Source: a virus
Length of the DNA: 28,029 nucleotides
Virus record (IMG/VR): IMGVR_UViG_3300029977_000008
Location: 1-28,029 of that record
Reading direction: 5' to 3' (one strand)
Shown here: positions 5,343-26,209 of the stretch, in pieces
Layout: the number at the start of each line of letters is the position of its first letter
How positions within the stretch are numbered: the first letter of the stretch is position 1
The notes under the pieces: model-generated
Database searches by the model: none
Seen by the model: only the letters and a program-made list of their open reading frames with translations
What the model was told of the DNA's origin: nothing
Position numbers and translations under genes: made by a program

Positions 5343-5695
5343 AATTTTTTAATAAATTCTAAAACCTCTTCCCAATAATCTATCATTTTTGCCATTATTT
5401 CATCATAATTTTCGCCTGCATTCCAAATAATATTTCTCCATTTTTTAGACCAACTTTCTCCTTTTGCTTTAGCAAATATTTTCTCTCCTTTATCACTTTC
5501 AATAACAATTTCTCCAGTTGGCTTGGCTTTAAATAAAATTGAATAAGTTCCATCTTGATTGCTTCTTTTTTCAGCTGAATAAACATTAATTGTTAAGCCA
5601 ATGACAAAATCATGGTCTACTCTCAATGGTTCTGGCAAAGAAACTAACCCTGTAATTCTTAAAATGTATTCTTTAATTTTGAGATTGTTTTCCAT
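5339..5695 (-). CDS. Hypothetical 118-aa protein after a hairpin leader
   Basis: A soluble protein of mixed strands ending in helices (GENYDEIMAKMIDYWEEV). No family is recognised. A single-strand DNA-binding or nuclease-accessory role would fit its neighbours but nothing in the sequence proves it. ATG 5695 follows GAGGGG at about 9 nt, one of the few Shine-Dalgarno-like sites here, and that G-run is close to a strong hairpin (5701-5784). Its stop overlaps the start of the 3D-domain gene, suggesting translational coupling. Confidence 0.7.
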   Translation of the reverse strand: MENNLKIKEYILRITGLVSLPEPLRVDHDFVIGLTINVYSAEKRSNQDGTYSILFKAKPTGEIVIESDKGEKIFAKAKGESWSKKWRNIIWNAGENYDEIMAKMIDYWEEVLEFIKKL

Positions 5696-5700
5696 ATTTT

Positions 5701-5784
5701 TAGCCCCTCATTTCTCCCCCCGACTCCTTTTTATTAGGGCTTGGGCCACTACGCCAAGCATATCGGGGGGAGAATCAGTGGCTA
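5701..5784 (-). other. GC-rich nested hairpin between genes
   Basis: Three stems nest here. The outer pair is TAGCC at 5701-5705 with GGCTA at 5780-5784, which includes the upstream gene's TAG stop. A perfect 11-bp stem joins 5713-5723 (TCTCCCCCCGA) to 5763-5773. An inner stem joins 5739-5744 (GCTTGG) to 5754-5759. There is no U-run after it on the minus strand, so it is not a simple terminator. It fills the gap before the 118-aa gene and may control translation or mRNA processing. Confidence 0.75.
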
Positions 5785-6120
5785 AATTTTTTCAATTTCT
5801 GGTAATTCTTCTTGATTTTCTAATTTGTCTTTTTGATATTTTTCCCATTTTTTCCAGAAAAATCCAGTGCCAGTTGGTTGATATTCTCCTAATGTTGAAG
5901 TTGCTCCACAATCCAAGCAAAATCTTTTGATATAAACAAATTCGCCTTTTTCTCCTTTTACTTTATTTTGCTTCCAAATAATATTTTTACTTTTACATAA
6001 TCCGCAATAATCAGGTTCAGTAAAAACCAATGCTTTTGCTAATGCTGTTTTTTCGTCTCTTTCGTCAATATCAATTTCTATAACCGCATTGCCAATTTTC
6101 TTTTTAATTGTGATTTTCAT
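5782..6120 (-). CDS. Zinc-ribbon protein (CxxC...CxxC)
   Basis: This 112-aa protein opens with a beta strand pair (MKITIKKKIGNAVIEIDID) followed by a helix, then a four-cysteine zinc ribbon: YCGLCKSKNI at residues 38-47 and FCLDCGATSTLG near residues 67-78. The conserved-looking GTGFFWKKWEKYQ and an acidic tail follow. I recognise the general pattern from phage replication clusters but cannot assign a proven function. An accessory role in DNA binding next to the Cas4/RecB-type nuclease is plausible. It starts 5 bp after the nuclease stop and ends with TAG inside the hairpin that follows. Confidence 0.75.
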   Translation of the reverse strand: MKITIKKKIGNAVIEIDIDERDEKTALAKALVFTEPDYCGLCKSKNIIWKQNKVKGEKGEFVYIKRFCLDCGATSTLGEYQPTGTGFFWKKWEKYQKDKLENQEELPEIEKI

Positions 6121-6125
6121 AGGAT

Positions 6126-6935
6126 TTAGTTTTTACTTTTTTCTGTATTTTCTTCTTTCAAAGTCAGATAAAGAGGATAATCTTTTTGCTGTGGTTCAAC
6201 TCCTTCGCATTCATTCTGCCAAATCTTATAAGTGGCTAAAAACAAATCAAATTTATCTGATATTTCAGTAAACTTCCAACCATTATTATTTCGGCGATAA
6301 CCTAATTGAAGAATTGCCAATTTTCTTTTATCCCATTCTTCTTTACTAATCTTTAATTCCTCTAAATTCAAATTTAAATGAGAATAAGCAGAAATCTGTA
6401 ATTCGTGTTCTGGCCAAATCGTTTGCGAAGTCTTTATATCAACAATATAAATCTGGCCATCAATTCGGCAAATAATATCAATTGTTCCAGCAAAAGTCTC
6501 ATCTTGACTAAAGGCTGTAATCTCATTAGCTAATATCTCTGGTTTCGTTTCTTTAAACCATTCAACAAATTTCATCACGCACTCATATTCCTCAACTTTC
6601 AATTCTTCCATTTCTCCAGTTTCAATATTCATCATATAATCTCCCATTTTGACCTCCTTGCCATTAAGCAAAATAGTAATTGCCTGATGAACCTTTGAAC
6701 CTTTATCACCAGCCATTTCTTTAATTGCCTCTGCTTCGTCCCATCCTTTATTTGCCAACCATTTATAAAATCCAATACCTTTAGGATAATAACTGGCAAT
6801 CCAGGTAACTGACGGCACGAATTTATAAACTGGCAAACCAGTTTTTTCGTCTATACTTGGCTTGGCATACCATCTCTCATCATAAGTTGTGATTTGAACG
6901 ATTCCATTTTTGATTTCTCTAATTTCTTTTTTCAT
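6126..6935 (-). CDS. Cas4/RecB-type PD-(D/E)XK nuclease
   Basis: This 269-aa protein has the motif order of the RecB/Cas4-like exonuclease family: GSKVHQAI (His83), NEITAFSQ (Glu138), the metal-binding GTIDIICRIDG (Asp153), YIVDIKTSQ (Asp166, Lys168), and the QISAYSHL helix (Gln180) that closes the site. The first hundred residues include VTWIASYYPKGIGF, a start often seen in phage versions. Such enzymes degrade or trim DNA ends in recombination. The cysteines of a Cas4 iron-sulfur cluster are not visible, so it is RecB-like and not a true Cas4. It follows the initiator and a small gene in the replication block. Confidence 0.85.
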   Translation of the reverse strand: MKKEIREIKNGIVQITTYDERWYAKPSIDEKTGLPVYKFVPSVTWIASYYPKGIGFYKWLANKGWDEAEAIKEMAGDKGSKVHQAITILLNGKEVKMGDYMMNIETGEMEELKVEEYECVMKFVEWFKETKPEILANEITAFSQDETFAGTIDIICRIDGQIYIVDIKTSQTIWPEHELQISAYSHLNLNLEELKISKEEWDKRKLAILQLGYRRNNNGWKFTEISDKFDLFLATYKIWQNECEGVEPQQKDYPLYLTLKEENTEKSKN

Positions 6936-6939
6936 AAGT

Positions 6940-7131
6940 TTAAAATTTTAAATTTAATCTACTTTCATAATCTTCATCTTCTTTCTTTTCAATCATTTTC
7001 CAACCATTTTCATCAATTTCTTCTTTATTTTCTTTCTTTATTTTTTCTCTTAATCTTTTCTGTAATCTCTGATTAAATTCTTTAATAATTTCCTCAATTG
7101 TTTTTCCTTTCATAAGACCATTAATTTTCAT
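6940..7131 (-). CDS. Small highly charged helical protein
   Basis: A 63-aa protein beginning MKINGLMKGKTIEEII if ATG 7131 is used, or 57 aa from ATG 7113. ATG 7131 overlaps the end of the initiator gene by 11 bp, favouring coupled translation. Longer frames upstream would read through the hairpin at 7151-7170 and are unlikely to be coding. The protein is Lys/Glu-rich and helical (LQKRLREKIKKENKEEI). No family is recognised. Confidence 0.6.
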   Translation of the reverse strand: MKINGLMKGKTIEEIIKEFNQRLQKRLREKIKKENKEEIDENGWKMIEKKEDEDYESRLNLKF

Positions 7132-8059
7132 TAAAGGTAGTTTTTGTTGACTGGGAGATTTCGCTCCCAGCGACCTTTGATATATCATAAATTGGTTTCA
7201 TCATTTCTACGTCATTTTTAATAACTCGCTCCCATTTAATAATTTTTCCTTTTTTTTCTTTATTTTCCATAGCCACAATATCGTCAATAAATTTATAAAC
7301 CGTTTCAAGCGAAAATTTTGTTAAATAATCTGTTTCTTTTAAAATCTTTATTGTTTTGATAATCATTTCATTTGAATAACCTTCTAAAAGTTTTGCTGGC
7401 CTGAGATTTCGCTTAATAATGCTTTGAAGTTGCTCTTTATTTTGCGGATTTAACGGCTTTTCTTTAATCCAAAGGCCAATAATTTGAATATGCCTTCTTT
7501 TATCGTTAAGCATTTTTTCAATTTCGGTGTTTAAGGAAAAGTCCGTCAAAACTTGTTTTGACATACTTTTATTATTTATATTATTACTAAGGAATTTATT
7601 ATTATTACTTAATAATAATTGTGGTTCCCGTTTCCACCCTCTGGATTCGGGAACCTCTGGACTAGGAACCTCTGGACTTTTTATCTGATTGATGATATTT
7701 TCCGCATTAAATAAAGGTTTTATCTTAACAAACCACCTTTTAATCACTTTTTTATTGCTATTTTTTGCCTTTTCTTTATAAGGAATGGTTTCAATTATAC
7801 CCCATTCAGTTAATTGTTTTTTTGCCTTTAAAAGGTCTTGTTTTCTCATTTTAAGGTTTTGTCTGACAAAATCATTAGAGGCCCAAATTTTTTTATGATT
7901 TTTTTGTAGTTTAGAACAATAGCAATAAAAAATAAATAAATAAATTTCATCTTTTGCCTTTTGTTTTATCAAAAATTCTAATGTTGGTTTGTGAATAATT
8001 ACTGAATCTTCTAAAATGTTTTTTAAACTTTCTTCCCAATTGTTGGTTATTTGTTCCAT
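7121..8059 (-). CDS. Replication initiator, lambda-O-like layout
   Basis: This 312-aa protein has three parts. Residues about 20-110 are a helical winged-helix region (ASNDFVRQNLKMRKQDLL, then KKQLTEWGIIETIPY and a basic strand). A low-complexity linker (residues 127-167, SPEVPSPEVP and then Asn-rich) follows. The C-terminal domain (residues about 185-270, with GYSNEMIIKTIKILKETDY and FSLETVYKFIDDIVAM) is of the type found at the end of phage replication proteins that recruit helicase. The linker is encoded by iteron-like repeats and an AT-rich tract, as in the lambda O gene, where the origin lies in the middle of the initiator gene. No polymerase or helicase is present in the genome, so host enzymes must be recruited. 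Function is inferred from layout; the wHTH is moderately clear. Confidence 0.7.
   Translation of the reverse strand: MEQITNNWEESLKNILEDSVIIHKPTLEFLIKQKAKDEIYLFIFYCYCSKLQKNHKKIWASNDFVRQNLKMRKQDLLKAKKQLTEWGIIETIPYKEKAKNSNKKVIKRWFVKIKPLFNAENIINQIKSPEVPSPEVPESRGWKREPQLLLSNNNKFLSNNINNKSMSKQVLTDFSLNTEIEKMLNDKRRHIQIIGLWIKEKPLNPQNKEQLQSIIKRNLRPAKLLEGYSNEMIIKTIKILKETDYLTKFSLETVYKFIDDIVAMENKEKKGKIIKWERVIKNDVEMMKPIYDISKVAGSEISQSTKTTFNEN
7151..7170 (-). other. GC-rich hairpin at the end of the initiator gene
   Basis: CTGGGAG at 7151-7157 pairs with CTCCCAG at 7164-7170, leaving a six-base loop, in the last codons of the initiator gene. The flanking 10-mer AGCGACCTTT (7169-7178, plus strand) recurs exactly upstream of the coat gene at 25329-25338. 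There is no U-run on either side, so an intrinsic terminator is unlikely. Confidence 0.6.
7565..7680 (-). other. Candidate replication origin inside the initiator gene
   Basis: Reading the minus strand from 7680, there are two 15-bp repeats of the form AGTCCAGAGGTTCC and a third degenerate copy (AATCCAGAGGG). An 8-bp inverted repeat overlaps them (GGTTCCCG at 7623-7630 with CGGGAACC at 7648-7655). A tract at 7565-7620 made almost only of A and T follows, itself with repeated TAGTAATAAT/TAAGTAATAAT units. Iterons beside an easily melted tract within the initiator gene is the lambda ori design. Direct evidence is repeats plus base composition; origin function is inferred. Confidence 0.55.
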
Positions 8060-8060
8060 A

Positions 8061-8480
8061 TTATTTTAAATAATCCCAAGCATTAATAAATTGAGAATAA
8101 TATTTCCAATTTTTAGTGTTAGAAAATGGATAAATTGCGATTGCTTTTTCTCCTTTAATTTTTTCTGCTGGAATAACTAAAAAAATAGTTTTGTTTTTTG
8201 TTCGACCAATGCAAATTAAAACATCAAATTTTCCTTTTTCTTTTGTATAATCAAAAGTCCAACGACCATATTTATATTTTGGAGAAATTTTAGAATAATT
8301 TTCATTGGCACATTTAACTTCAACTCTTTTTCCATTAACGATAAAATCAAAATCATGAGAATTATCTTTTTCAACATTACATTGAAATTTGAAACCTAAA
8401 TCATTAAATTTATTAATGGCTAAATATTCTCCTAATTTTCCAGTGGTAAAATTTTTTCCGAATAAATTTGTTTGCTTCAT
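8061..8480 (-). CDS. PD-(D/E)XK endonuclease-like protein (first gene after the early promoter)
   Basis: A 139-aa protein from ATG 8480 (MKQTNLFGKNFTTGKLGEYL). Motifs are GKLGEYLA (Glu18), SHDFDFIVNGKRVEVKCAN with Asp45, Glu54 and Lys56, and a later basic strand pair. This is the compact restriction-endonuclease fold shared by Holliday-junction and restriction-type nucleases. Being first in the operon it may attack host DNA or act in phage recombination; sequence does not decide. An in-frame TTG at 8549 would add 23 residues but has no ribosome site. ATG 8480 lies about 7 nt after a TATAAT, so a leaderless transcript is likely. Confidence 0.75.
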   Translation of the reverse strand: MKQTNLFGKNFTTGKLGEYLAINKFNDLGFKFQCNVEKDNSHDFDFIVNGKRVEVKCANENYSKISPKYKYGRWTFDYTKEKGKFDVLICIGRTKNKTIFLVIPAEKIKGEKAIAIYPFSNTKNWKYYSQFINAWDYLK

Positions 8481-8487
8481 ATATTTT

Positions 8488-8515
8488 ATTATAACTCTTT
8501 TCAAAGTTATGACAA
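8488..8515 (-). promoter_or_regulatory. Second promoter, probably giving a leaderless mRNA
   Basis: On the minus strand TTGTCA (8515-8510) and TATAAT (8493-8488) are 16 bp apart. Only seven bases separate the -10 from ATG 8480, so transcription would start at or next to the start codon. Confidence 0.6.
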
Positions 8516-8521
8516 CATTAC

Positions 8522-8530
8522 TTATCCACA
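8522..8530 (+). promoter_or_regulatory. Perfect DnaA box (TTATCCACA)
   Basis: The nine bases match the consensus DnaA box exactly and lie between the two promoters, just upstream of the replication block. It could load host DnaA for replication or tie early transcription to the host cell cycle. I saw no second perfect box nearby; a one-mismatch copy at about 21084-21092 is inside a fibre gene. Confidence 0.65.
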
Positions 8531-8598
8531 GGCCCAGAAAAATTTTCAATGTTTCCGACTTTTACGAAATTTGCTGATAAAATCTATACTTTTAAGAC

Positions 8599-8626
8599 AT
8601 TATAACATAAAAAAAAATCTTGTCAA
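8599..8626 (-). promoter_or_regulatory. Strong sigma-70 promoter for the rightmost operon start
   Basis: TTGACA (8626-8621) and TATAAT (8604-8599) both match consensus with a 16-bp spacer, and TGT precedes the -10, giving an extended -10. Transcription would start near 8592 and run with all genes. It is the best promoter in the genome and stands in the only substantial gap between genes. Confidence 0.88.
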
Positions 8627-8640
8627 ATTATTTTTCTCTT

Positions 8641-8690
8641 AATTTTTTTAAAAAATAAAAAACCCATCTCAATTTAATTGAGAAAAATTT
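8641..8690 (-). terminator. Weak hairpin terminator after the lysis block
   Basis: The palindrome at 8667-8683 (TCTCAATT...AATTGAGA) is followed on the minus strand by GGG and a run of T. The stem is AT-rich and short, so efficiency may be modest. It lies after the last late gene and directly before the strong promoter, where a terminator would be expected. The opposite strand also has T after the stem. Confidence 0.5.
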
Positions 8691-8714
8691 TTTTAAATTT
8701 AATCTAAACATTTT

Positions 8715-8894
8715 CTAAAAATTTTTTGGCAATGCTTTTTCAATTGCTAACAAAACTCCAGTCAAAAGAGAAACATAAACAGCATCTAAATTGAATTCTG
8801 GTAAAACTTTAACAGCATAAAGAATGCCAGCAGAAAGCATTGTTCCAATCAATCCTTTGAGAAATCTTTTTAAGATTAAAGGGAATGGTGTCAT
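8715..8894 (-). CDS. Small holin-like membrane protein
   Basis: A 59-aa protein from ATG 8894 to TAG 8717. It has two hydrophobic stretches: GLIGTMLSAGILYAVKVL at about residues 14-31 and VYVSLLTGVLLAIEKAL at about 40-56, separated by a short polar turn. Small two-helix membrane proteins ending a late operon beside a wall-degrading enzyme are typical holins, which open the inner membrane for lysis. It begins 10 bp after the protease stop and is the last gene before the terminator. The reading frame is clear; holin function is inferred from size, topology and place. Confidence 0.65.
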   Translation of the reverse strand: MTPFPLILKRFLKGLIGTMLSAGILYAVKVLPEFNLDAVYVSLLTGVLLAIEKALPKNF

Positions 8895-8904
8895 AGGTGT
8901 TATT

Positions 8905-9861
8905 TTATATCAATTTCTTTTCTTTAGCCTCTGGTTTGGTATAGTGAAGCCAAATATCGCCATTTTTATTTTTAAAAACAGTTTCAAAATCCCATCTCCC
9001 AGCAGTTAATCCATAAAATTCTCTTTTGGTGGGATTTCTTTTAATCTGATTTAAAATATAAAGCCAATCTCTCCAACTTAATATCTTAAACATCAAATCA
9101 AAATCATCTGTCTTGTCGCCATATTTTTCGTCAACTCTAAATTTTGTTGACCCTTTTTTTGTAATATTGTATTTCATAGCAATTGTTATTTTTTTAATAT
9201 CATATAAATAAGTTGGTTTGTTGTAATATAAATAACTATCATAAATTTTGGCTTTATTCCCTTCATATCCATAACACATGACGGCGTGAGTTCCGTTATT
9301 AATAACCACTTGTAAAGGACCATATTTTAACGCTTCTTTAATTGCTTCCTCGGTGGTATCAATCCATCTATAAGTAATTTCCCATTCATTTAATCTTGAT
9401 TTGGCTCTATCAAGCAATTCTTGTGGAATAGGGATGTAATATTCTTCGCAACTTCTTATTTCTGTTGGATTTGGAAATTCTTCTTCATAAAGAAAACCAG
9501 TAGTTCGCCAATCATTAGCCACTCGATGTAAATAATTTCCCCTATAGCATTGCGTGCCAGAAGTAATGGCTGATTTTCTATCCGACAAATTACATTTAAT
9601 TCCATATTTTCTTCTTAATAAGGTTTCTAAACAATTAGCCGAACTAAAATTGGTGCAAGCATAAGTTTCGGCCCATTTTAAAAATTGTGGCTCAAATTCT
9701 GGTAAATAATCATCCCATTGCCCATCAGGACATAAAACTTCTTCATCTGCTCCAATTCCAACCCAATCAAATTTTTTCTCTTCATCACTTCTTGGGTCTG
9801 GAATAACACCATGATTTTTAAATTTGTTTTTTTTGAACAAATTTTTAAGTAAATTAAACAT
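8905..9861 (-). CDS. Papain-like cysteine protease, candidate endolysin or virion peptidase
   Basis: A 318-aa protein from ATG 9861 (MFNLLKNLFKKNKF). TYACTNFSSANCLE at residues 67-80 mirrors the papain CWAFS helix with nucleophile Cys69. GTHAVMCYGYEG supplies His192, and IYDSYLYY supplies Asp208 in place of the usual Asn. No Gln is seen six residues before the cysteine, so the oxyanion residue is uncertain. The C-terminal 80 residues are extra. A longer frame from ATG 10032 would overlap the upstream zinc gene and read through a hairpin, so I rejected it. Between a coiled-coil membrane protein and a holin-like gene, a role in cutting peptidoglycan crosslinks is plausible; protein processing is the alternative. 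Confidence 0.75.
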   Translation of the reverse strand: MFNLLKNLFKKNKFKNHGVIPDPRSDEEKKFDWVGIGADEEVLCPDGQWDDYLPEFEPQFLKWAETYACTNFSSANCLETLLRRKYGIKCNLSDRKSAITSGTQCYRGNYLHRVANDWRTTGFLYEEEFPNPTEIRSCEEYYIPIPQELLDRAKSRLNEWEITYRWIDTTEEAIKEALKYGPLQVVINNGTHAVMCYGYEGNKAKIYDSYLYYNKPTYLYDIKKITIAMKYNITKKGSTKFRVDEKYGDKTDDFDLMFKILSWRDWLYILNQIKRNPTKREFYGLTAGRWDFETVFKNKNGDIWLHYTKPEAKEKKLI

Positions 9862-9880
9862 AGTTTTTCTTTTTGAAGAT

Positions 9881-9960
9881 GGGCGGGGGGTATCAGTGGT
9901 GATGGCCCATTGACCTTTGGCTTTAAAAAGCCCATTTTGATACCTCCCCGCCCAGGGAGG
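9881..9960 (-). promoter_or_regulatory. Structured leader with two competing stems
   Basis: One long stem pairs 9881-9895 (GGGCGGGG...TATCA) with 9938-9953, with one bulge. A different perfect 6-bp GC stem pairs CCTCCC (9943-9948) with GGGAGG (9955-9960). The two share bases and cannot coexist. A third small stem is at 9919-9932 (GGCTTT/AAAGCC). On the mRNA the short stem forms first and the long one later, the geometry of an attenuator or switch, though no T-run follows. It fills the gap between the zinc gene and the protease gene. Confidence 0.65.
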
Positions 9961-9967
9961 CAAGATT

Positions 9968-10141
9968 TTAATCCCAAGGCCTTTCTTCTTCTTCTTCTGG
10001 TTTTTCAAATTCAATAACGAGAACTCTTTCATCTAAACATTCATTACAAACAAAAATCAGAATTAGAGTGTTATTTTCGTAATCGTAATCTTTAATGACA
10101 TAATTGCCTACTTTGCATTTTAAACAAGTTAAATATGCCAT
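9968..10141 (-). CDS. Tiny zinc-binding protein
   Basis: A 57-aa protein, MAYLTCLKCKVGNYVI followed by VCNECLDERV and an acidic tail with a run of Glu ending RPWD. The two CxxC pairs form a probable zinc ribbon. It is preceded by the best Shine-Dalgarno in the genome, so it is surely translated and probably made in quantity. No family is recognised. It lies between the DEDDy exonuclease and the papain-like protease. Confidence 0.8.
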   Translation of the reverse strand: MAYLTCLKCKVGNYVIKDYDYENNTLILIFVCNECLDERVLVIEFEKPEEEEERPWD

Positions 10142-10145
10142 CTTA

Positions 10146-10155
10146 CACCTCCTTT
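10146..10155 (-). promoter_or_regulatory. Perfect Shine-Dalgarno AAAGGAGGTG
   Basis: AAAGGAGGTG ends 4 nt before ATG 10141. Other genes here have A/T-only leaders, so this site is an exception and fixes the start of the 57-aa gene. A second AAGGAGG lies further upstream in the same roughly 80-bp gap, followed by two GGCATTTAA repeats but by no obvious start codon. Confidence 0.85.
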
Positions 10156-10220
10156 AAAATACCTTGTTTTTTGCGTTTAAATGCCCTTAAATGCCTCCTT
10201 TTTTATTTATAGGTATAAAA

Positions 10221-11003
10221 CTATTTAATGATATCATCTTTATCAATATACCTTACAAACCAATTACTAATTGACCATTTACCACATTTTTTACATTTAA
10301 ATCGCTGTCTTTTGATTCCTGTGCTTAAATAACTCCATCCCTTACATATTATATCACGTGAACCGCAATAAGGACAAGTATCTTTTTTCACATAAATGGC
10401 TGGATGTTTGGTGGCGTATGGTCTAAATTTCAAATAAATTTTTTCTAATAAAGCCACATCCCTTTTGTTATACCTTCTTAAAGTTTCCCAATCTTTTTCG
10501 CTGGCTGTCCTTTCAGTTAATCTAACCCATAATCTATTTTTTTCAGTTATTTTTTCTTTCCGACCTAAACCTAAATATTCACATAAATCTTCTAATGAGT
10601 TGGAATTAAAGCCAAATTTATAATAAGCAAATTTTTTGGTGTCAAAAATTTTAAATGGCGGTGGTGGTGGCAAATTATATTTGAGAAAAAAAGTATTGAT
10701 TTTTCTAATATCAAATTTTTCAGCATTATGAGCAACAATGATATCTGCTTTTTCAATAACTTTATAAAGTTCATTAACCAATTTTTGATTATTAAATTTG
10801 AAATCTTTTTCAGTAAAACAGGTTATATTTTTTGTTCCAAGCCATTTATAGGCAAAAGATAATAATCTGCTTTCTTGCTCATAGATAAATATATCCTGCT
10901 GGTATTTGCCAAAACAATAGCCTTTGTTATATGAGGTTTCAATATCAAAGAGCAAAACTCTAAATTCTTTTTCTTCTGGAACAATTTCTTTTATTCCAGA
11001 CAT
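10221..11003 (-). CDS. DEDDy 3'-5' exonuclease with C-terminal zinc ribbon
   Basis: A 260-aa protein. ExoI is LLFDIETSYN (Asp20, Glu22), ExoII is VAHNAEKFDIRKI (Asp98), and ExoIII is YNKRDVALLEKIY (Tyr178, Asp182), so the four acidic residues and the DEDDy tyrosine are present. This resembles the exonuclease half of family-B polymerases or the YprB RNase H-like group, but no polymerase domain follows. Instead a zinc ribbon with CPYCGS (Cys210, Cys213) and KCKKCGKW (Cys237, Cys240) ends the protein. It may trim or degrade nucleic acid, binding it through the ribbon. Its place among late genes, away from the replication block, is odd. It ends with TAG. Confidence 0.82.
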   Translation of the reverse strand: MSGIKEIVPEEKEFRVLLFDIETSYNKGYCFGKYQQDIFIYEQESRLLSFAYKWLGTKNITCFTEKDFKFNNQKLVNELYKVIEKADIIVAHNAEKFDIRKINTFFLKYNLPPPPPFKIFDTKKFAYYKFGFNSNSLEDLCEYLGLGRKEKITEKNRLWVRLTERTASEKDWETLRRYNKRDVALLEKIYLKFRPYATKHPAIYVKKDTCPYCGSRDIICKGWSYLSTGIKRQRFKCKKCGKWSISNWFVRYIDKDDIIK

Positions 11004-11006
11004 AAA

Positions 11007-11219
11007 TTATTTTTTATAATTATTTTTTTTCATTACAATCAATTGCCAAATTTGGCTGACAACCAAACCAATAAAAGCAACCATCACTGCCTTAAAATAC
11101 CATAATAATTCAGCCATTTGAGCTTTCAAAACAGCCACATCCATTGCCAATTGGGTGTAATCATCATTTAGAGTTTTTAGGTGTTGTAAAATTTCTTGAA
11201 TAATTTGGTCATAATTCAT
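11007..11219 (-). CDS. Small coiled-coil membrane protein (XhlA/holin-like)
   Basis: A 70-aa protein with an N-terminal heptad coiled coil (IIQEILQHLKTLNDDYTQL, VAVLKAQMAELL) followed by one transmembrane helix at about residues 44-62 (VMVAFIGLVVSQIWQLIVM) and a basic tail. The pattern of short coiled coil, single helix and positive tail resembles the XhlA-type lysis accessory proteins. It follows the tail fibre and opens the lysis block. A two-part lysis membrane system with the 59-aa protein is a reasonable guess. Confidence 0.65.
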   Translation of the reverse strand: MNYDQIIQEILQHLKTLNDDYTQLAMDVAVLKAQMAELLWYFKAVMVAFIGLVVSQIWQLIVMKKNNYKK

Positions 11220-11225
11220 ATGCGT

Positions 11226-13784
11226 TTATCTTATTAAGGTCCTATCTTTAAACCAAATCGCCATCCAATCAATGTTTATTAGATTGGTAGCGGTTGTGCC
11301 AGAATTGGTAGCCACCACTCCAGCCCCAGTTTCTCTACCAGAAGCAGTTGGAATATTAGTTGTTAAATAATCAGTCCAAAGTAAGTTTCCAGCATCATCA
11401 TAAAGATAGAAATCAACTCTTGTTGCGTTTGAATTAACCACTAATTTTGCCCGATACCAAGTATTGATAGTTAATGTATAAGAAGTTGAGGTTGTGCTTC
11501 TGGCTGAATTGTTTGCTGTTTTTCCGACAATGTTTAATGAATTGGCTGGGATTTCAAAATAAACACCATCAGTTGCATCAGAACTGCTTGTTGTATCTAA
11601 ATAGCCAAACCTTAAAGTTGTATTAGTTCCACTGGCAACTAAATGCTGGAAAATAATCTCAAAAACTTCTCCTCCACCAATTCTGAAAGCAGTTGTATCT
11701 GTTTGAATTCTACCTCCTGAATTAGCGGTTGTAGATGAAGTCAATCTTAAAATTCCTGGATGATGTTGGTCTGATGCTACTTTTGCTTGCGTTCCTGAAT
11801 TGATTGCTACATAATCAAAAGGATAACATGCTTCAACGGTTGCTCCAGTAGCAATTCCTAAAAAGTCAGTATAGTAAAATGGTTTAACTCTGGTATAAGC
11901 CAGCAATGTATCAATATCAGTAATTCCGCCTCCACCGCCACCAGTTGATGAAATTGTTAATTTAACTTCTTCATTAGCATTATCATCTTCAACATTTATA
12001 CTGATACCTGAACCTTCAATAAAGTTTAATCTCCTTCTTGTGCCGATATTTGAGCCAGAATTTTTTCTGATAGTTATTCTGGCATTAGCATCTAAATTTC
12101 CAGTTATGGGGTCAGAACCATTAGATTGATGAGTTGAAGCATGCAAAGGTAAAGGAAAATCTGATTTTGAGACGATATACCAATTGCTTCTTCCATCTGA
12201 ACGAATAACTACATAATCGTATCTTTTTGAAAGAACATATGAATTTTGCCCGTCAATGTATTGATTAAGTCCTCCTTGAGAATAAGGATAAATAACAACA
12301 CTTCCAGAACCAATATTTTTAATCTCATATTCTCTACCAGGAATTGATGTTAAATCTGGTAAATAAACATTCAAAAAAACAAAAGGACTGGCATAAATGG
12401 TATGATGAGTTTCATTTAAAATAATATCACTACTAACAATATCTATCTTTTTAGCAACTGAACCGCCGATATCTAAATAACTATTAGGTGAGGATTTTTT
12501 AATACCAATTTTGCCTGTGCCCGTGATATCAAAGTTCAAGTTATAATTTCTTAAAGCAATCGTGGTATTTTCAATTAAACTTCCGCCTAATTTTACTTGA
12601 TTTCCACTTAAAGTAAGACCATTAACAAAATCATAATTTGATAAGTCAAAAAGAAGTTGCCATTCATAAATATCGCTATGCCATTTATAAACATTATTTT
12701 CATCATTAACTGCTACTATCCAAGTTGATTGTGGTGTATAACCATTCCAAGAACTACCATTCCATTCAGCAATTTTATAAACTCCAATTTGAGAAAAAGC
12801 AGTATTAGTTGTTGCGTTATAAATTGTCCCACCAGCAACAGGATTAGGAATACCTTCTTGAACTACAATTCTTGTATTATTTGGGGGTTGAAATTCTACA
12901 ACTTGGATTGTATACCAACCATTATTGCCCACAGAATTTCTAACTAAAATTTTATCCTGTGGTGAATAATAAGGAATTCTATTACCAGAAATTATAAAAG
13001 TATCAGGTAGTTGTATTTCAACAATATTATCAGAAACCGCATAATTGATAATATATCTATCGCCAATAGCGGGGTTTGCTGGTGGTTGTGATAAATCTTT
13101 ATCTTTAACTGCCTTTTGCCATTCAATAGCCAAAGTAGCAAGTTCATCTACATATTTTTTATGAACCGCTTGATAATCAGAGGTTGGATTTGAGGAGGGT
13201 AAAATTGGAAAAGAACTAAAGGTTTTAATTCCATCTATAGTTTGGTCGCCAGTTAAATTAACTTTATTATCTAAGGCATTTTGTAAATCTGTTTGGTCTG
13301 ATAATGTACCAGTAATGTTGCCCCAAGAAATATCAGAAGTTAAAGCAAAGGTGCCAGATTTATCGGGAAAAGTAAAGGTTTGATGAGCAGTTAGTAAAGC
13401 AGCATCAAGAGTAGCACTAAAACCAGAATCCTGGTCTATAATTTTTATTTTAGTTGCCCAATTCAAAGAGGAAATACCATTATTGGATGTAAGATTTCTA
13501 TTTTGTAGGTCTATTGCTTCATAATCATCAAAATTAGAAAATAAGGATTCAGCTTTAATTATAGAAGCATTTAATAAATCATACCCTCCCAAATCCACAT
13601 TTTGAGTCGCTCCTGTATAAGGAACATAATTTTCCAAATCAGTATAGTTAGCCTTAGCATCTAATGCTTCCTGTAAATCTGTCTGGTCTGATAATGTTCC
13701 GCCAATATCTCCCCATTTTACATCTTTTGCACCTCCTCCCTTTTCGTAATAATCAAGTTTTTTTTGTCGTGGTCTGTAAGGCAT
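11226..13784 (-). CDS. Tail fibre / host-binding protein
   Basis: An 852-aa fibre. The N-terminal region carries two copies of a TLSDQTDLQ-ALD module (near residues 30 and 160) and a unit reading QTIDGIKTFSSFPILP with AVHKKYVD, a repeat also found in the other fibre gene. A DUF2793-like segment follows (about residues 225-385, with PPANPAIGDRYII and WNGSSWNGYTPQSTW). Strand-rich shaft follows, then a Gly-rich hinge (GGGGGG) and a C-terminal lectin-like beta sandwich ending INIDWMAIWF. It probably binds the host surface as a trimer. It starts 4 bp after the stop of the 1443-aa gene. Confidence 0.82.
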   Translation of the reverse strand: MPYRPRQKKLDYYEKGGGAKDVKWGDIGGTLSDQTDLQEALDAKANYTDLENYVPYTGATQNVDLGGYDLLNASIIKAESLFSNFDDYEAIDLQNRNLTSNNGISSLNWATKIKIIDQDSGFSATLDAALLTAHQTFTFPDKSGTFALTSDISWGNITGTLSDQTDLQNALDNKVNLTGDQTIDGIKTFSSFPILPSSNPTSDYQAVHKKYVDELATLAIEWQKAVKDKDLSQPPANPAIGDRYIINYAVSDNIVEIQLPDTFIISGNRIPYYSPQDKILVRNSVGNNGWYTIQVVEFQPPNNTRIVVQEGIPNPVAGGTIYNATTNTAFSQIGVYKIAEWNGSSWNGYTPQSTWIVAVNDENNVYKWHSDIYEWQLLFDLSNYDFVNGLTLSGNQVKLGGSLIENTTIALRNYNLNFDITGTGKIGIKKSSPNSYLDIGGSVAKKIDIVSSDIILNETHHTIYASPFVFLNVYLPDLTSIPGREYEIKNIGSGSVVIYPYSQGGLNQYIDGQNSYVLSKRYDYVVIRSDGRSNWYIVSKSDFPLPLHASTHQSNGSDPITGNLDANARITIRKNSGSNIGTRRRLNFIEGSGISINVEDDNANEEVKLTISSTGGGGGGITDIDTLLAYTRVKPFYYTDFLGIATGATVEACYPFDYVAINSGTQAKVASDQHHPGILRLTSSTTANSGGRIQTDTTAFRIGGGEVFEIIFQHLVASGTNTTLRFGYLDTTSSSDATDGVYFEIPANSLNIVGKTANNSARSTTSTSYTLTINTWYRAKLVVNSNATRVDFYLYDDAGNLLWTDYLTTNIPTASGRETGAGVVATNSGTTATNLINIDWMAIWFKDRTLIR

Positions 13785-13788
13785 ATTT

Positions 13789-16700
13789 TTATTTATTTAA
13801 TTGTTTAATATCAAGTTGTTTTTCAATTGAAAATCTTTTTAACAATTCTTCAAGCAACTGATTTTTTTCTAATGTGGCTAAATTCTTTAAATCGTAAGTA
13901 TATCTATTAAGCAATCTTTGTTTATTTGCTTCATTCAATTTTTTTTGAGTAATTTCTTCTATCCTTTCAACCATCATCGGAAACATTTTAACAAAAAGAT
14001 TATTCCATTCTTTGATTAAATAAAGAACTTTTACCGCATCTCTCTGTTTAATTGCCTCTTTTATCTGTTTATTTCTCGCTTCTTTTTCATCATTTAAAAT
14101 TTTGATAAACTGCGATAAATTTCTAGCCTTTGTTAATCTTAATGGTGTAAAACCAAGTCCATAAGCTACCCTTTCAGCCAAAGTAAATTTTGCCTGCGGA
14201 ATTTCTGTATACCAATTCATTTTTACTCCTTCTTCCATAAAGAACAATGCTTCTACCATTCTAGCTATATTTGGAGAAATGGTTGAAAGAATATTTACTC
14301 CTTCTTTCCATTTACCTTCTCTAAATTTCTTTAAAGCGGTTAATCCTTTTTTAGCATCACTAATATTTACTCCCAAATTGCCGAGTAAAGTATCTTTTTC
14401 TAAAACTTGGAATGGTTCAGTAGAAAAGCCAGAACTTAAATCTACGCCAATTAAGGAGAATAAACCAGCAGCTAATTTAGGATATTTATTGTAAAAGTAA
14501 TTTAAAAGCAAAACTCCCAATCCACCACCTAAAATACCTAAAAATATTTTTAAAAGAGGTTCAATTAATTTTAAGCCAGATAAAAGAATATTTATTGTCC
14601 AAAATCTTGATAAGCGAGCAAATTTTTCAGCAGTAGTTAATGGTTGTGCTTTATAGAAAATTTCTGTTCCAGCAGTTGGTTTTCCCAAAGTTACTCTTAA
14701 TGCTTTATCAAGCCAAACTAATCTAATAAATTGAAATTGAAAAGCCAAACTGCCTAATGGATGCAAAAAAGCACGAGGTAAATCAGTATAATTATACATT
14801 CCCATTGAACCAGCCACTTCTCTAATTGCATAATCTATTGCCATATCTTCTTTACTTGCATAAGGCTCTAATCCATATTTTTTTCTAAATTCATTTTGAA
14901 TATTTAAATCAAACCTATTTAAAGCATATTGATAGTAACCCAAAAATGCTACACTTCTTGTAAACTTTTCTGCTTCAGTGAAAAGGCCCAATGGATGATA
15001 AATTTTTACATCTTTTATCGGTTTAAATTCGCCTCCTTCATATCTGATGGCATAATTAGTTAAAATATTGCTCTTTTTTAAAATTCTTTCTGCTTCTGGA
15101 GTTTTTAAATTTTTTATTGCTTGCACAATATTTTTATAGCCAAGTTCTGGAGAAAAGGTTATAAACTGAATTGAATTGATGCCTGCTTGTCTTAAACCAT
15201 AACCAAGTTTAAATGTTGCTTGCCATTTTTTAATTTTACCAGTTATTTTTCTCAATCCATAATAATGATAATCAAGCAAGCCTTGTGTTTCTATCGTGTT
15301 GATATATTCTTCCATTGCTTTTCTATAGCCAGGCGGAAGTTCTGGCAAAATCTTTCTTAAATCTTTACTCATTTCTTCAATATAATTTTTTCTCAAAAGT
15401 TTGCTAATGAGAATTTTTTGAACAACTAAGGGGTCTTTCAAATAACCACCTAAATTTGCTATTCTTGGCAATAATGCTCCGACAAAAACTTTTTTTCTTT
15501 TAATTTTTGCCACTCCTTTTAAAATTTCACTTTCCATTAATTCTTTTGTTGAAATTGATAAAGCATCAGAAACTTGAATTAAAAACCTAATAAATGCTTT
15601 TTGAGATAAAGGAGTGGCAGTAGAAGGCCATTGAAATCCTCTTTTTCTAATAACAGCATCAGTATTTGGATGTTGAGAAAGATATTTTTCAAAGAAATCT
15701 ATTGCATCTTTATATTTGCCAATGAATAATCTTTTCTTTTGCGATGGACTATAAACTTCAAAATTTCCGACAAAGAAATGATGAAGATAATTAGTAATGT
15801 CAAATCTGAAATGTTCTGGTTTGCCACCAACCCTTCTAACTAATTCTAAAATAATTTCTGCATTTTTCCGATAATCCTTAATCACGCTTTTATATGGTTC
15901 TGGCAATTTATCAACTTGTTCATCTGTTAATCCCATCTCAATATAATCAGCCAATTTTTCTTTTTGTTCTGGTGTTAATTTATATTTTTCAATCTGTTTA
16001 TTAATCCGACTCAATAAAACACTTTTTTCTGCCTCAAAAGCCAAGTTTTTAGTTATGATATCAGCCACTTTTTCTGAAGCGAGAGGATTACCAGCAAAAA
16101 TAACTCTGGCTGGTAAAAAACTTCTAAATAAATAAGTTAAAGCGGGGATGTCTTTTGGTGTTTGCTCTAAAATTTCTCTACCAATTGATTTTTCTAATCT
16201 TTTTATTTTTTGAGATGGGAAAAAACGTTCCCAAATTTCTCTAAACCAATTGATTTTATAATTGTTTATATCTTCGGGAGTAATCATGCCACCAAGTGCT
16301 TTTTTGCCAATTTCACCTGCTGGTTTTGATTTTGCTTTTTTTTCAACTGCTTCTAATGCCTGCCATTTTGCCTCCTTATAAGGAATGCCTTCTGCCCTTA
16401 ATTTAGCTAATTTATTTTTATAATAACCCATTAATGGACCAAGAGCCTTTAATCTTTCGCCAAAATTAGTGCGTTCTGGTTTGACTTCTGGTTTAACTTC
16501 TGGTTCAACTTCTGGCTTGACTTCTGGTTTGGCTTCTGGTTTGGCTTCTGGTTTGGCTTCTGATTTGGCTTCTGGCTTGACTTCTGATTTGGCTTCTGGT
16601 TTGACTTCTGGTTTGACTTCTGACTTTGATAATCCCCCTTGAGGAATTTCTGGCTTAATTCCCTTAACTACATTCCAAAATTCCCCTAAATTTTTAAATC

Positions 16701-18120: not shown

Positions 18121-18128
18121 ATTTTTAA

Positions 18129-20225: not shown

Positions 20226-20237
20226 ATGATTAAGAGG

Positions 20238-21395: not shown

Positions 21396-21399
21396 ATGT

Positions 21400-22941
21400 T
21401 TAAGAAATGTTAAATGTCTTGCTTGGCTGAATATATCGCCTATCTCTGGCTTTATATTCAAGGCCAAGACGAGAGATAACAAAATTTTTTAAACTATTAT
21501 TACCGACCTTTATTTTTAAAGTATTTCCTTTATCAAGAAAATATATTCTGCGTTTAACATATTCAGTTGGTTCTATTTCTTCCCCATAACCATCTCCCAC
21601 AAAAATTTGTCCAACAACTACTTCACCAATTGTATTTTCCATCCCATCATTTTCAACAACAATTGAAAATGATTTTGTTTTTTTCCACCTTTCGTCAAAA
21701 TCATCAATGATTAATTCAACATCGCAAATTGTTTCTATATTCTTAAATTCCAAATCTAAAGATTTAAAGATTAATGTTTTTAGAAAATCCTGTTCGCCAA
21801 TTTGCTTAAAAACCGCATAAGATTTAATCGGCTCTCCATTATCATTATACCCATCAGTCCATTTATAAATCTTCCCTTTTTCAGTCAAAGTTGAGAAATA
21901 AACTTTATCTTGATAAATTGTGACACAATACATTCTTGCCTTTACCCTATCAACTAATTTCGTCCAGTTATTTTTGTAAAGAATATGACAAATATAGGTG
22001 GTATTGTTTACTTCATCTGCCCCTAATGGTACAGATAAATAGAACCTGTTTTGATGATAGAAAGCAACTGCTCTATCAGCGAAATTTTCATTTATTTTTG
22101 CTAAACCATCTTTAATTTGATTTGATAAAGATATAGGGTCAAAACCAACCACCCCACCACCAAACATACTTGTCAACCAAGCAATCCTTCTTACTTCTTT
22201 GCCAGTAAAAAACCAAACATCATTTTCAACCCAACAATAGCCTTTTTTTGATACACAACCATAATTGCTTGAAATAACATCTATTTTTGGAATATAAAGT
22301 TGAGAATTTGGCTCGTAAACAAATTGAAGTCGCCAAGTTGATTTTTCTTTAAAAATTATCAAATAATTGTAATATTTAACTAAACCAGTAATTTTATCAG
22401 TGCCTGGTGGCTTAACCACATTGGCTGTTGGAAAATTTAATGGCTCTCCTGGCTCTGAATAATAAAGAGATAAAGGATAAGTTTCATTGCCAGCAATAAA
22501 TAATCTATCTTCAAAAATTTCTAAAATATTGCCAGTTGGTTTACCAGTATGAACTTGAACATTCCCACTTCCATCCCAACTCATTAACGCATCTACTCCA
22601 TTAGCCATATAAAGAACATCATCATAAACTTTATAACCCATCATTTTTCCATCTGTTAAATTTTCTTTTAAATCTGTCCAATTTCCATTGTTATAATACT
22701 GCAATTTTGTTCCAATTGTCCTTAAAAGAAATTCATTGCCATTTTGCTTTTTATAACTGAATAAACTTGTGATTATATCATCTCCATTTTCGTTAAATAA
22801 TTCACAGCCAGTATCTTTTTGAATTTCATTTGCCCCAGTATAAATGCAATTAACTGGCACCTCCTTTTTTCCACTCACTCCTTCATCAATATCAACAATA
22901 TCTAATAAATTTGAAACAACTAATTTTTTGGTGGCTTCCAT
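21400..22941 (-). CDS. Beta-rich tail nozzle / tail-tube B-like protein
   Basis: A 513-aa protein made of repeating strand motifs with Trp/Tyr and Gly turns, such as GYKVYDDVLYMANGVDALMSW, LEIFEDRLFIAGN, YYNYLIIFKEKSTWRLQF and WVENDVWFFTGKEVRRI. This resembles the beta-propeller-containing nozzle proteins that close the podovirus tail (T7 gp12 and P22 gp10 type). It follows the adaptor gene and precedes a fibre, the usual order. The fold is inferred from pattern and neighbours. The start, ATG 22941, lies 4 bp after the adaptor stop and has no Shine-Dalgarno. Confidence 0.75.
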   Translation of the reverse strand: MEATKKLVVSNLLDIVDIDEGVSGKKEVPVNCIYTGANEIQKDTGCELFNENGDDIITSLFSYKKQNGNEFLLRTIGTKLQYYNNGNWTDLKENLTDGKMMGYKVYDDVLYMANGVDALMSWDGSGNVQVHTGKPTGNILEIFEDRLFIAGNETYPLSLYYSEPGEPLNFPTANVVKPPGTDKITGLVKYYNYLIIFKEKSTWRLQFVYEPNSQLYIPKIDVISSNYGCVSKKGYCWVENDVWFFTGKEVRRIAWLTSMFGGGVVGFDPISLSNQIKDGLAKINENFADRAVAFYHQNRFYLSVPLGADEVNNTTYICHILYKNNWTKLVDRVKARMYCVTIYQDKVYFSTLTEKGKIYKWTDGYNDNGEPIKSYAVFKQIGEQDFLKTLIFKSLDLEFKNIETICDVELIIDDFDERWKKTKSFSIVVENDGMENTIGEVVVGQIFVGDGYGEEIEPTEYVKRRIYFLDKGNTLKIKVGNNSLKNFVISRLGLEYKARDRRYIQPSKTFNIS

Positions 22942-22945
22942 AAGA

Positions 22946-23545
22946 TTAAATTAACTTCGTATATTCAAATAATGATTTTCCTTCTTGCCCACTCTCCTCT
23001 CTTTTTCTCAAAAGTTTTGTCCTTTCATCTTTTAAAAGAATGTATTTTTGCTGATAAACATTAGCTAATTCATTTTCTTGCATATCTTCAAAACAACGAT
23101 AAACTGCTCCCAAAATTAAAACTTCGTGAAATAATGGGTCAATGTCTGGCTCTTCATTAAGTTTTTCAGAAGTAATTTCTGTTGGTTTGCGATAATAATA
23201 TAAATCAAGAGAAGTGGTTGTATCTGGTTTAACAAGAATTTTATTTTCTAAAATAGTCAAACAATAATTTTCGTCTCCTTCCAAAAAGTTTTCTATCGGC
23301 CTTAAAGAAAACTCTTTTGCTCCATCAGTAGCATAATAAAAACTCAAATAATCTGCTGGCAAATCGGCTTTACCATCAGTAAAAGTAAGAGTAGTTTTTT
23401 TAATTCTGCTTTGAAGATTCAAATTAGAAGAAATTTCCAATAAAATATTGTTTAATACTCTAATAATATCGCTATCAGTAAAAATACCCACATTATGCTC
23501 CAAAATTTTTTTTCTTATTGCTTGAATTATTTCCCTTGAAGTCAT
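22946..23545 (-). CDS. Head-tail adaptor (T7 gp11-like)
   Basis: A 199-aa protein with a helical start (SREIIQAIRKKILEHN, then DIIRVLNNILLEISSNLNLQ), a central strand hairpin (TLTFTDGKADLPADYLSFYY), and a second helical half (PLFHEVLILGAVYRCFEDM, ANVYQQKYILLKDERTKLL). This helix-sheet-helix layout is typical of podovirus gatekeeper or adaptor proteins, which form a ring under the portal. Size and position, after the coat and before the nozzle, agree. The assignment is by pattern, not by a diagnostic motif. Confidence 0.75.
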   Translation of the reverse strand: MTSREIIQAIRKKILEHNVGIFTDSDIIRVLNNILLEISSNLNLQSRIKKTTLTFTDGKADLPADYLSFYYATDGAKEFSLRPIENFLEGDENYCLTILENKILVKPDTTTSLDLYYYRKPTEITSEKLNEEPDIDPLFHEVLILGAVYRCFEDMQENELANVYQQKYILLKDERTKLLRKREESGQEGKSLFEYTKLI

Positions 23546-23549
23546 AAGT

Positions 23550-24332
23550 TTATATTTCGTTGATATATTTATAATCTAAATTTTCCCGATTTTGCCATGC
23601 CTGCTGATAATTTTCTCTCCCTTTAATATATCGCCAAGTTCCATTCACTATATCGTGTTTTGTTATTTTCCAAGCACCATCGGGATTTAAAAAACCAAAA
23701 TATTCAACATCTTCTCTAATATCTTCATCTGATGGCTCATAAGAAACATATCTATCATCAGAAATAATTGCTCCACCACCGCCACCAATAACAACCGCTT
23801 GCTTAATATCTTTATAATCCCAAACTTCACTTTCATCAGCAGAAATCAATTGTGCTTTTATTTTTTCTGGCATTTCAACCTTAATAGATTGAACCGCTTC
23901 CTTTATTTCTTTAACCAATTTTTCATTTTCTTTTTTTATTTCTTTAACTAATTTACTAAAATCAGGTAATTCAAATTTAAATTTTGATGATTTTAGTTCT
24001 GACAAAACTTTTTCTATTTTTTTCAAATCAACTTCCACATTTACTTCTGGCTTTGGAACTTCAATTGGTGGAACTTCAATTTTTGAGATTTCAACTTTAA
24101 CATTTGGTGGTGGAATTTTGATTTGAGAAGCATCAATTGGTGGAACTTTTAAATCTTTGGCTTTGATTTCTGGAATATCAACTTTAATTTCTGGCTTAAT
24201 ATCAACCTTAACTTCTGGCTTAATTTGTGGCATCTCCACAACCTTAACTTTAAAAACCGCATCGGTGATTTTTTTGCTCAATAAAAGAATTTCATTTTTA
24301 ATGATTTCTAAAATTTTAAGTAGTTTATCCAT
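23550..24332 (-). CDS. PEVK-rich virion structural protein
   Basis: A 260-aa protein from ATG 24332. A helical start is followed by a long alternating run of Pro, Glu, Val, Ile and Lys (IKPEVKVDIKPEIKVDIPEI and similar, about residues 35-115), a coiled-coil segment (LVKEIKKENEKLVKEIKEAV), a Gly-rich loop (VVIGGGGGAI), and a C-terminal block YFGFLNPDGAWKITKHD with WRYIKGRENYQQAWQNRE. I have seen comparable C-terminal blocks in phage head or tail proteins but cannot name the function. Head fibre, decoration or adaptor roles are open. A longer reading from 24383 uses TTG and passes through the hairpin, so I rejected it. Confidence 0.65.
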   Translation of the reverse strand: MDKLLKILEIIKNEILLLSKKITDAVFKVKVVEMPQIKPEVKVDIKPEIKVDIPEIKAKDLKVPPIDASQIKIPPPNVKVEISKIEVPPIEVPKPEVNVEVDLKKIEKVLSELKSSKFKFELPDFSKLVKEIKKENEKLVKEIKEAVQSIKVEMPEKIKAQLISADESEVWDYKDIKQAVVIGGGGGAIISDDRYVSYEPSDEDIREDVEYFGFLNPDGAWKITKHDIVNGTWRYIKGRENYQQAWQNRENLDYKYINEI

Positions 24333-24345
24333 AAGATTTGATTTC

Positions 24346-24391
24346 CTGATATTTGGGTGGGAACCTTTATCGCTCCCACCCAATATATCAG
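24346..24391 (-). other. Large GC-rich hairpin after the coat gene
   Basis: A stem of 17 bp with one bulge pairs 24346-24362 with 24374-24391; the loop is 24363-24373 and contains ACCTTTATCGC. It begins about 10 bp after the coat stop and ends 13 bp before the next ATG. No U-run follows on the minus strand. It may protect the 3' end of the abundant coat message or mark an RNase processing site. Confidence 0.8.
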
Positions 24392-24400
24392 AAAACCAGA

Positions 24401-25276
24401 TTATGACACAGAGAATTTAGCGAAAAGATAACCAAGTGCTTTCTTTCTTTCAGTTGGAACTTTCGCACCATAAACAACCAAACCCTTGCAAGTATTGAGG
24501 AAGGAATTCGGGTCAGAAGATGATGGAACAACGCTAACATCAAGGATTTGAACCGCCATACAGATGGCTGATTTATGGCCGTAGAGACAATAATAACCAT
24601 TGGTATTATTGCCAGAAACGCCATTGTTAATATAAATCTTGAAGCCAGCAACAGTTCCAACCAAACCCTTCAAAACCACTTCTTCATAAGCAACAGCAAC
24701 CGCTGGAGTTAAAGCACCGCTATTTAAGAGGGCTAATTGAGCATCTGGCGGGAAAACGAAAAATCTATCAGTTAAAGGAATTTCTTTCTTATCAAGATTA
24801 ATTTTTGCTTGAACAATGTATCTGTAAATTGTGTCTTTATTGACGGCAATAGCAGAACCACTATTGGTGATTTTATTATCATCATGGACCTCGTCATAAA
24901 GGCTTAACACATATCTATTAATGGTGGCATCAATAGATTTTCTGGCTTCTTCGACATATTCATTGATAACATTGATATCACTCTGAAATTTATCAATATC
25001 ATCAACAACAAATTTGAAGTATTTCTGTTGGTCAACAACCAATGCTTCCTTTGCCGGAGCAAGGTCTTGAGGAGTCAAAGATGTTTGCCCCTTGGTATAG
25101 TTCTCTAAATTAATAACATCAGCAACAGTCCTGATATAAACCTGGTCGCCCCCTTGCTTAATTTCTCCCTCATAATCGGTATTGGCAATATCTCTCCAAA
25201 TAGTAGTTTCCCAGAATCTCTTGATTAACTTGGTAGAAAACTTTACTGGAATGAGGTTAGATAAGTTGTAAGCCAT
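24401..25276 (-). CDS. Major capsid protein (P22/HK97 fold)
   Basis: A 291-aa protein beginning MAYNLSNLIPVKFSTKLIKR. The pattern of FWETTIWRDIANTDYEGEI, then GGDQVYIRTVADV, a spine-helix-like region (INEYVEEARKSIDATINRYV) and the late strand block RFFVFPPDAQLALL fits P22-coat-like HK97-fold proteins. It is encoded immediately after a scaffold-type gene. Base use is visibly less AT-rich than in neighbours (more GCA, GTC, ACC), consistent with strong expression. Its leader has no Shine-Dalgarno. Confidence 0.88.
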   Translation of the reverse strand: MAYNLSNLIPVKFSTKLIKRFWETTIWRDIANTDYEGEIKQGGDQVYIRTVADVINLENYTKGQTSLTPQDLAPAKEALVVDQQKYFKFVVDDIDKFQSDINVINEYVEEARKSIDATINRYVLSLYDEVHDDNKITNSGSAIAVNKDTIYRYIVQAKINLDKKEIPLTDRFFVFPPDAQLALLNSGALTPAVAVAYEEVVLKGLVGTVAGFKIYINNGVSGNNTNGYYCLYGHKSAICMAVQILDVSVVPSSSDPNSFLNTCKGLVVYGAKVPTERKKALGYLFAKFSVS

Positions 25277-25328
25277 ATATTTAAGTTTAATTATTTTTTA
25301 AGCATTCACCTCCAACGATGAGCACGGG

Positions 25329-25346
25329 AGCGACCTTTAAATTATA
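25329..25346 (-). promoter_or_regulatory. TATAAT plus AAAGGTCGCT motif ahead of the coat gene
   Basis: On the minus strand TATAAT (25346-25341) is followed by AAAGGTCGCT (25338-25329), which also occurs exactly next to the hairpin at 7151-7170. A bulged stem CGCTCC/GGAGGTG follows. There is no good -35 at normal spacing, so promoter activity is doubtful. The shared motif may be a regulatory or processing element. Confidence 0.35.
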
Positions 25347-26152: not shown

Positions 26153-26167
26153 AGGTTTTTTCCTCAT

Positions 26168-26209
26168 TGGCAAGGTTAGATTAAATCAAATGATTTAATC
26201 GTCTTGCCA
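26168..26209 (-). other. AT-rich hairpin upstream of scaffold
   Basis: A perfect 10-bp stem (26179-26188 with 26191-26200, loop AA) is extended by TGGCAAG (26168-26174) paired with CTTGCCA (26203-26209) across a small internal bulge. It ends one base before ATG 26167, a competing start whose codon abuts the stem. It could favour use of the downstream ATG 26152. Confidence 0.6.

Follow-up and report, generated by a model that had tools for sequence, protein, structure and literature searches.

Background

Phages express capsid, portal, scaffold and tail proteins from one long message, yet the capsid protein is needed in far larger amounts than the others. In T7 a terminator follows gene 10, and a drop in expression behind the capsid gene is common in phages. 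Downstream of Mu-like major head genes lies the Mu-gpT-DE RNA motif. In E. coli, stable hairpins that lack a uridine tract occur inside operons, where they shield the RNA upstream of them from 3'-to-5' exonucleases; of 34 operon segments whose upstream gene is protected, 26 were found to end just after such a hairpin, and the protected genes often encode subunits needed in excess (PMC5927463). Intrinsic terminators require a hairpin and a U-rich sequence with bacterial as well as with phage polymerases (PMC11347151), and some bacterial transcript ends are unlike canonical intrinsic terminators (PMC13289151). The gene 43 RNA operators of phages T4 and RB69 have identical top 10 bases (PMC3014915).

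The structures described here follow the major capsid protein (MCP) gene in a lineage of uncultivated phages. With T7-type intrinsic terminators they share the hairpin and the position behind the capsid gene, but they differ by the lack of a U-tract in 41 of 41 stems. With the Mu-gpT-DE motif they share the placement of a structured RNA 3' of a major head gene; no Rfam model matched them, and it is by this Rfam search that the two are set apart. The closest parallel is offered by the operon decay boundaries of the malE type in E. coli (PMC5927463), which are likewise stable in-operon hairpins without a U-tract, placed after a gene that has to be expressed in excess. Unlike these, the post-MCP structures are phage-borne, are fixed to the capsid gene, include a class with a covarying loop-bulge helix and are known from sequence alone. 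The gene 43 operators (PMC3014915) are similar in being hairpins with a conserved tip and a less conserved lower stem, but in contrast to the element of the phage studied here (E4) they precede the gene under their control and have a known protein ligand.

The phage and its lineage

The window analysed is an IMG/VR virus record of 28,029 nt. Because it has a terminal direct repeat of 127 nt, it very likely represents a closed circular genome of approximately 27.9 kb from an uncultivated tailed phage. The G+C content is 31%, and the main genes are carried by the minus strand (Table 1). No relative of the portal was found among 50,697 deposited phage records, and the nearest relatives of the phage are about 40% identical at the protein level.

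Relatives of the exonuclease are present in Staskawiczbacteria and Moraniibacteriota contigs, and also in MAGs assigned to other phyla, assignments in which binning may err. The terminase has a relative pointing to Patescibacteria. A 149-kb contig of a Patescibacteria genome (locus L323, G559:C1) contains, at 9689-15267, relatives of the portal, scaffold and MCP genes in a block that is likely a provirus of the same lineage. Apart from the MAGs of other phyla, these matches point to Patescibacteria as the host of at least part of the lineage. A small protein encoded at 741-1043 matches sigma-70 region 2 and is possibly a phage sigma factor, and a perfect sigma-70-type promoter (TTGACA-16-TATAAT with an extended -10 TG) is located at 8599-8626 on the minus strand, in the largest intergenic gap.

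Table 1. Genes and structured elements of the window
Feature	Position	Strand	Description
Terminase gene	2148-3539		
E1	5699-5786	-	Long T-less hairpin with branched top, between genes 5782-6120 and 5339-5695; MFE -47.2, z -6.3
Exonuclease-like protein gene	6126-6935		
E2	7133-7178	-	Weak hairpin in the last codons of gene 7121-8059; z -3.1 alone, 0.0 in wider context
E3	9880-9954	-	Long T-less hairpin with branched top, between genes 9968-10141 and 8905-9861; MFE -44.5, z -4.0
Gene after E4	23550-24332	-	Likely start ATG at 24332
E4	24339-24398	-	Long U-less plain hairpin, tip CGAUAAAGG; MFE -39.7, z -9.3
MCP gene	24401-25276	-	PHROG 267 major head protein (E 6e-40); Pfam Phage_capsid_4
E5	25304-25330	-	3' arm of a long-range stem, ahead of the MCP gene
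5' arm of the E5 long-range stem	25447-25465	-	Within the scaffold gene
Scaffold-like protein gene	25352-26173		Synteny with relatives
E6	26167-26209	-	Hairpin GGCAAG...CUUGCC ahead of the scaffold gene; MFE -20.8, z -5.4
Portal gene	26775-28016		Synteny with relatives

Structured elements between genes

A sequence-only reading of the window had described five GC-rich structured elements in gaps between genes, here called E1 to E5, and had regarded them as one set. All five places exist, and three of them are exceptional: E1, E3 and E4 fold far better than shuffled sequences, are the top three local folds of the genome by folding energy, rank second, ninth and first, respectively, in a z scan of 932 windows, and sit in real gaps between consecutive genes. 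The description did not hold for the other two. E2 is weak, lies in coding sequence and is left out of the system. For E5 no local fold was obtained (z 0.16); its sequence CUCCCGUGCUCAUCGUUGG pairs, with a 3-nt bulge, with CCAACGAUGACGGGAG in the scaffold gene approximately 130 nt upstream (-48.1, z -3.0), and this stem includes a 10-nt perfect inverted repeat (25312-25321 / 25453-25462). A further hairpin, E6, was missing from the original list.

The grouping of the five elements into one set had to be abandoned. They could not be aligned and have no common sequence or fold, BLASTN among them detected no similarity and no family, and E2 and E5 are different things. The hexamer AAAGGT, which had been taken for a common signal, occurs at chance level (31 occurrences against 26.7 expected), and nothing supported its proposed role as a cleavage site. 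The exact 10-mer noticed in two elements is real, since AAAGGTCGCT was found exactly twice in the genome, in E2 and in E5, but the surroundings of the two copies are otherwise unlike. Another motif, GGGAGCGA, occurs four times against 0.19 expected, a figure qualified by the post hoc choice of the motif.

As had been stated before, no T-run follows any of the elements on the mRNA strand, and a terminator scan of that strand made no terminator-like call at E1 to E5; E1, E3 and E4 have the GC-rich hairpin of an intrinsic terminator but not the U-rich tract directly 3' of the stem. Processing of the late message by RNase III, as in T7, is another role that could be imagined for such structures, especially for the ones behind the MCP gene. 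The stems are long and near-perfect, and a 9-mer of E2 and E5, AAGGTCGCT, is also present at two intergenic hairpins of T7, which we take to be RNase III sites. This likeness was rejected: the occurrence of the 9-mer is at about chance level between two such sequence sets, it is paired differently in E2 and E5, where the pairing with the partner arm is not found, and E4 does not contain it at all. Cleavage by RNase III therefore appears quite improbable.

It had also been suggested that the elements could be small dispersed repeats. Palindromes in gaps might indeed be mobile, or serve as DNA signals in cruciform formation, packaging or replication, and a short block, CCACTGAT..CCCCCCG, can be recognized by eye in both E1 and E3. 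However, BLASTN found no extra copies of the elements in the genome, whereas a dispersed repeat of the REP or MITE kind should be present in several similar copies, and none was detectable in deposited phages, against which E1 yielded a single 18-nt match at E=10 and E3 none. A likeness by eye between E1 and a hairpin in another locus (L102) was not recovered by BLASTN.

In the contig L091 (38.8 kb; found by the exonuclease search, with a homologous exonuclease, 55%, and a homologue of gene 5782-6120, 40%), an unlike GC-rich, T-less hairpin lies in the gap after the latter homologue, i.e. in the place of E1; this is a single case. Probably E1 and E3, like E4, belong to one general kind of RNA structure between cistrons and, judging by fold and place alone, they may act like E4 at other junctions. 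Together with E5 they are kept separate from the case of E4.

RNA structure behind the MCP gene in relatives

E4 starts 2 nt 3' of the MCP stop codon. Alignment of the portal identified 329 relatives, from which 80 loci were kept; with an MCP profile the capsid gene was found in 52 of 88 loci examined, giving 42 distinct post-MCP stretches, the window included. In 35 of these the post-MCP stretch is the most stable gene end of its contig, against 3.8 expected. Mean folding energy was -22.5 kcal/mol, compared with -8.1 at 481 other gene ends (the ends were called mechanically), and the difference was also seen when composition was controlled by dinucleotide shuffling, with median z values of -4.35 and, at 220 other gene ends, -0.36; since the contigs are related to each other, p-values for these comparisons overstate independence. 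No clear structure was seen in a few relatives, L275, L254 and the prophage-like block of L323, which has no strong structure 3' of its MCP gene. Almost every relative thus has a strong RNA structure just 3' of the MCP gene, without a normal terminator signal, and the conserved feature is the position behind that gene.

In 37 of the 42 stretches the fold of the mRNA strand is more stable than that of the complement, which is expected of an RNA with G-U pairs and not of a DNA signal. This bias and the fixed position next to the MCP gene speak further against mobile palindromes or DNA signals; such an explanation is very improbable for the structures in general and largely excluded for E4.

There is a modest chance that the post-MCP structures are unusual U-less terminators or attenuators, which would let fewer transcripts reach the downstream genes. 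Many phages are built so that expression falls behind the capsid gene, and one hairpin that shares its tip with E4, in L087, is followed by TTTTTCTTTTT. Non-canonical transcript ends do exist in bacteria (PMC13289151). On the other hand, a U-rich tail, needed by intrinsic terminators (PMC11347151), followed none of the 41 post-MCP stems, and the terminator scan was blank at the sites on the mRNA strand.

A covarying loop-bulge class

In about 15 of the 42 post-MCP stretches the loop of the hairpin complements a bulge at its base. The geometry is a 7-nt loop complementary to a 9-nt bulge located about one helical turn below, as exemplified by L297: GGCUCGUUC-GCUUGGGGAG-cua-CCUGACG-gaaa-CUCCCCAAGC-aa-CGUCAGG-GAAUGAGCC. 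High-scoring pairing of this type was present in 15 of the 42 stretches; at other gene ends it was seen once in 480, and in random windows 6 times in 3000. A covariance model built from two sequences (R2) had 12 matches in 0.95 Mb, every one right after an MCP gene, and 10 distinct relatives matched R2 or a further model, R3. In the alignment derived from the R2 matches 95.8% of the cells were paired and 21 of 27 pairs displayed compensatory change; none of 500 shuffles was as good, and sliding the partners destroyed the signal. The loop-bulge helix itself (91% pairing, four covarying pairs) had been left out of the model, and its pairing is therefore independent evidence. Covariation is claimed for this class alone, the simple-hairpin class having aligned poorly in MAFFT.

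No gathering-level Rfam match was obtained in the window or in the relatives, and the representatives L297 and L064 had no match at E<=2 and E<=5, respectively. R3 found no match in 380 genomes of the Patescibacteria phylum. The loop-bulge RNA is a new class without an Rfam match. With stems of approximately 10-12 bp and linkers of 0-2 nt, there is little room for both helices in one molecule, so the loop-bulge helix may belong to an alternative fold or link separate molecules.

Downstream of the loop-bulge class lies one type of gene; behind the simple hairpins it is mostly another. In L261, L264, L272, L297, L299, L305, L310, L313, L315 and L064 the gene behind the loop-bulge RNA is conserved, and its product has an N-terminus like MxxLKRLFxK..PADMxMVxYWKT...GEKYPFPGFPRGHLLFG.

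E4 and its tip

E4 was matched by neither of the loop-bulge models (R2, R3). As it fails the covariance model of the class, it is regarded as the positional counterpart of the loop-bulge RNA and is not filed as a member. A search with covariance models had been put forward as a check on the whole set. The model made from E4 and the corresponding hairpin of L091 matched only those two in 0.86 Mb, and the loop-bulge model matched only after MCP genes. Model R1 had no match in 188 genomes of one Patescibacteria class.

The strongest hairpin of L091 also lies directly after the MCP gene and lacks a T-run. Its tip, CGAUAAAGGUU, is that of E4 but stands on an entirely different stem, where both partners differ in 7 of the 12 pairs. 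The same nine bases (CGATAAAGG) also top a further long stem in L087, a third phage that has the exonuclease; here T-rich sequence follows. In a set of 377 distinct long hairpins from 2.2 Mb, the GATAAAG tip was carried only by these three. A second tip, CGTGCACGG, likewise recurs on hairpins in the loci examined, so recurrence of a tip is not unique to E4, and for this reason the shared tip is suggestive, but no proof, of a common binding partner. In IMG/VR the 15-mer of E4 was found in 15 stretches, never within a comparable hairpin, and the pattern GGNNCGATAAAGGTNCC in 110 stretches; in the 80 that were examined the longest stems were in coding sequence, which indicates that the E4 tip is rare. 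At L088 15780 (+) and L219 6957 (-), T-tailed hairpins have a common tip, CCGTGCACGGCGG, on different outer stems; recurrence of a tip is possible on phage terminator stems that are otherwise unrelated.

A tip that is kept on the unrelated stems of E4, L091 and L087, as in the gene 43 operators of T4 and RB69, would fit a role in control of the downstream gene, whose translation would be set either by a phage or host protein bound to the structure or by a switch that responds to ribosomes as they leave the MCP gene. Such control is conceivable because the covarying loop-bulge helix exceeds what a block to exonucleases needs and because this class, tied to one downstream gene type, has a different gene behind it; moreover, loop helix and hairpin stem would be sterically hard to accommodate together and could give alternative folds. 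Against this, the downstream genes vary among relatives while the structure stays behind the MCP gene, and where the tip follows an MCP gene, in two of its three carriers, these MCP genes belong to different groups and have different neighbours. Taking both sides into account, we consider downstream control unlikely. Another reading, in which the lineage has evolved a special-purpose RNA device behind its capsid gene that may work as a switch or through kissing pairs between two mRNAs, with E4 and its kept tip as the protein-read form, is doubtful.

A possible role in protecting the MCP message

Of the earlier suggestion that the elements are RNA control, processing or stability elements, the part concerning E4 gained support from the position and structure kept in relatives, the mRNA-strand bias and the missing U-tract. 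E4 is a stable hairpin at a gene boundary without a U-tract, as expected of a protective 3' structure. The MCP gene is an obvious case of a subunit needed in excess, and we therefore propose, tentatively and with somewhat less than even confidence, that E4 is this phage's version of a U-less post-MCP hairpin kept throughout the lineage, which would work as a protective 3' structure in a polycistronic late mRNA. The proposal starts from the observed position, strength, U-less tail, mRNA-strand bias and conservation of the structures and from the compensatory changes of one class. Ribonucleases would cut the late message downstream of the structure, and 3'-to-5' exonucleases would then stall at it. 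In this way the structure would define where a long-lived MCP message ends; the MCP segment would outlive the segments for minor proteins, and the capsid protein could accumulate above its neighbours.

A structure at the end of the capsid gene throughout an uncultivated lineage is a concrete candidate for raising capsid output. The covarying class of post-MCP RNA matches nothing in Rfam, and the portal of the same lineage is without a match in deposited phages.

Other repeats in the window

Inside gene 7121-8059, at 7623-7678, three direct repeats (GGAACCTCTGGACT) with a spacing of 15-16 nt lie beside an inverted repeat and are followed by AT-rich sequence. The arrangement looks like an iteron-type replication origin within an initiator gene, and the gene possibly encodes the replication initiator. 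Tandem 12-nt repeats at 16474-16641 correspond to a PEVK/PEAK-like repeat in a protein of 1443 amino acids.
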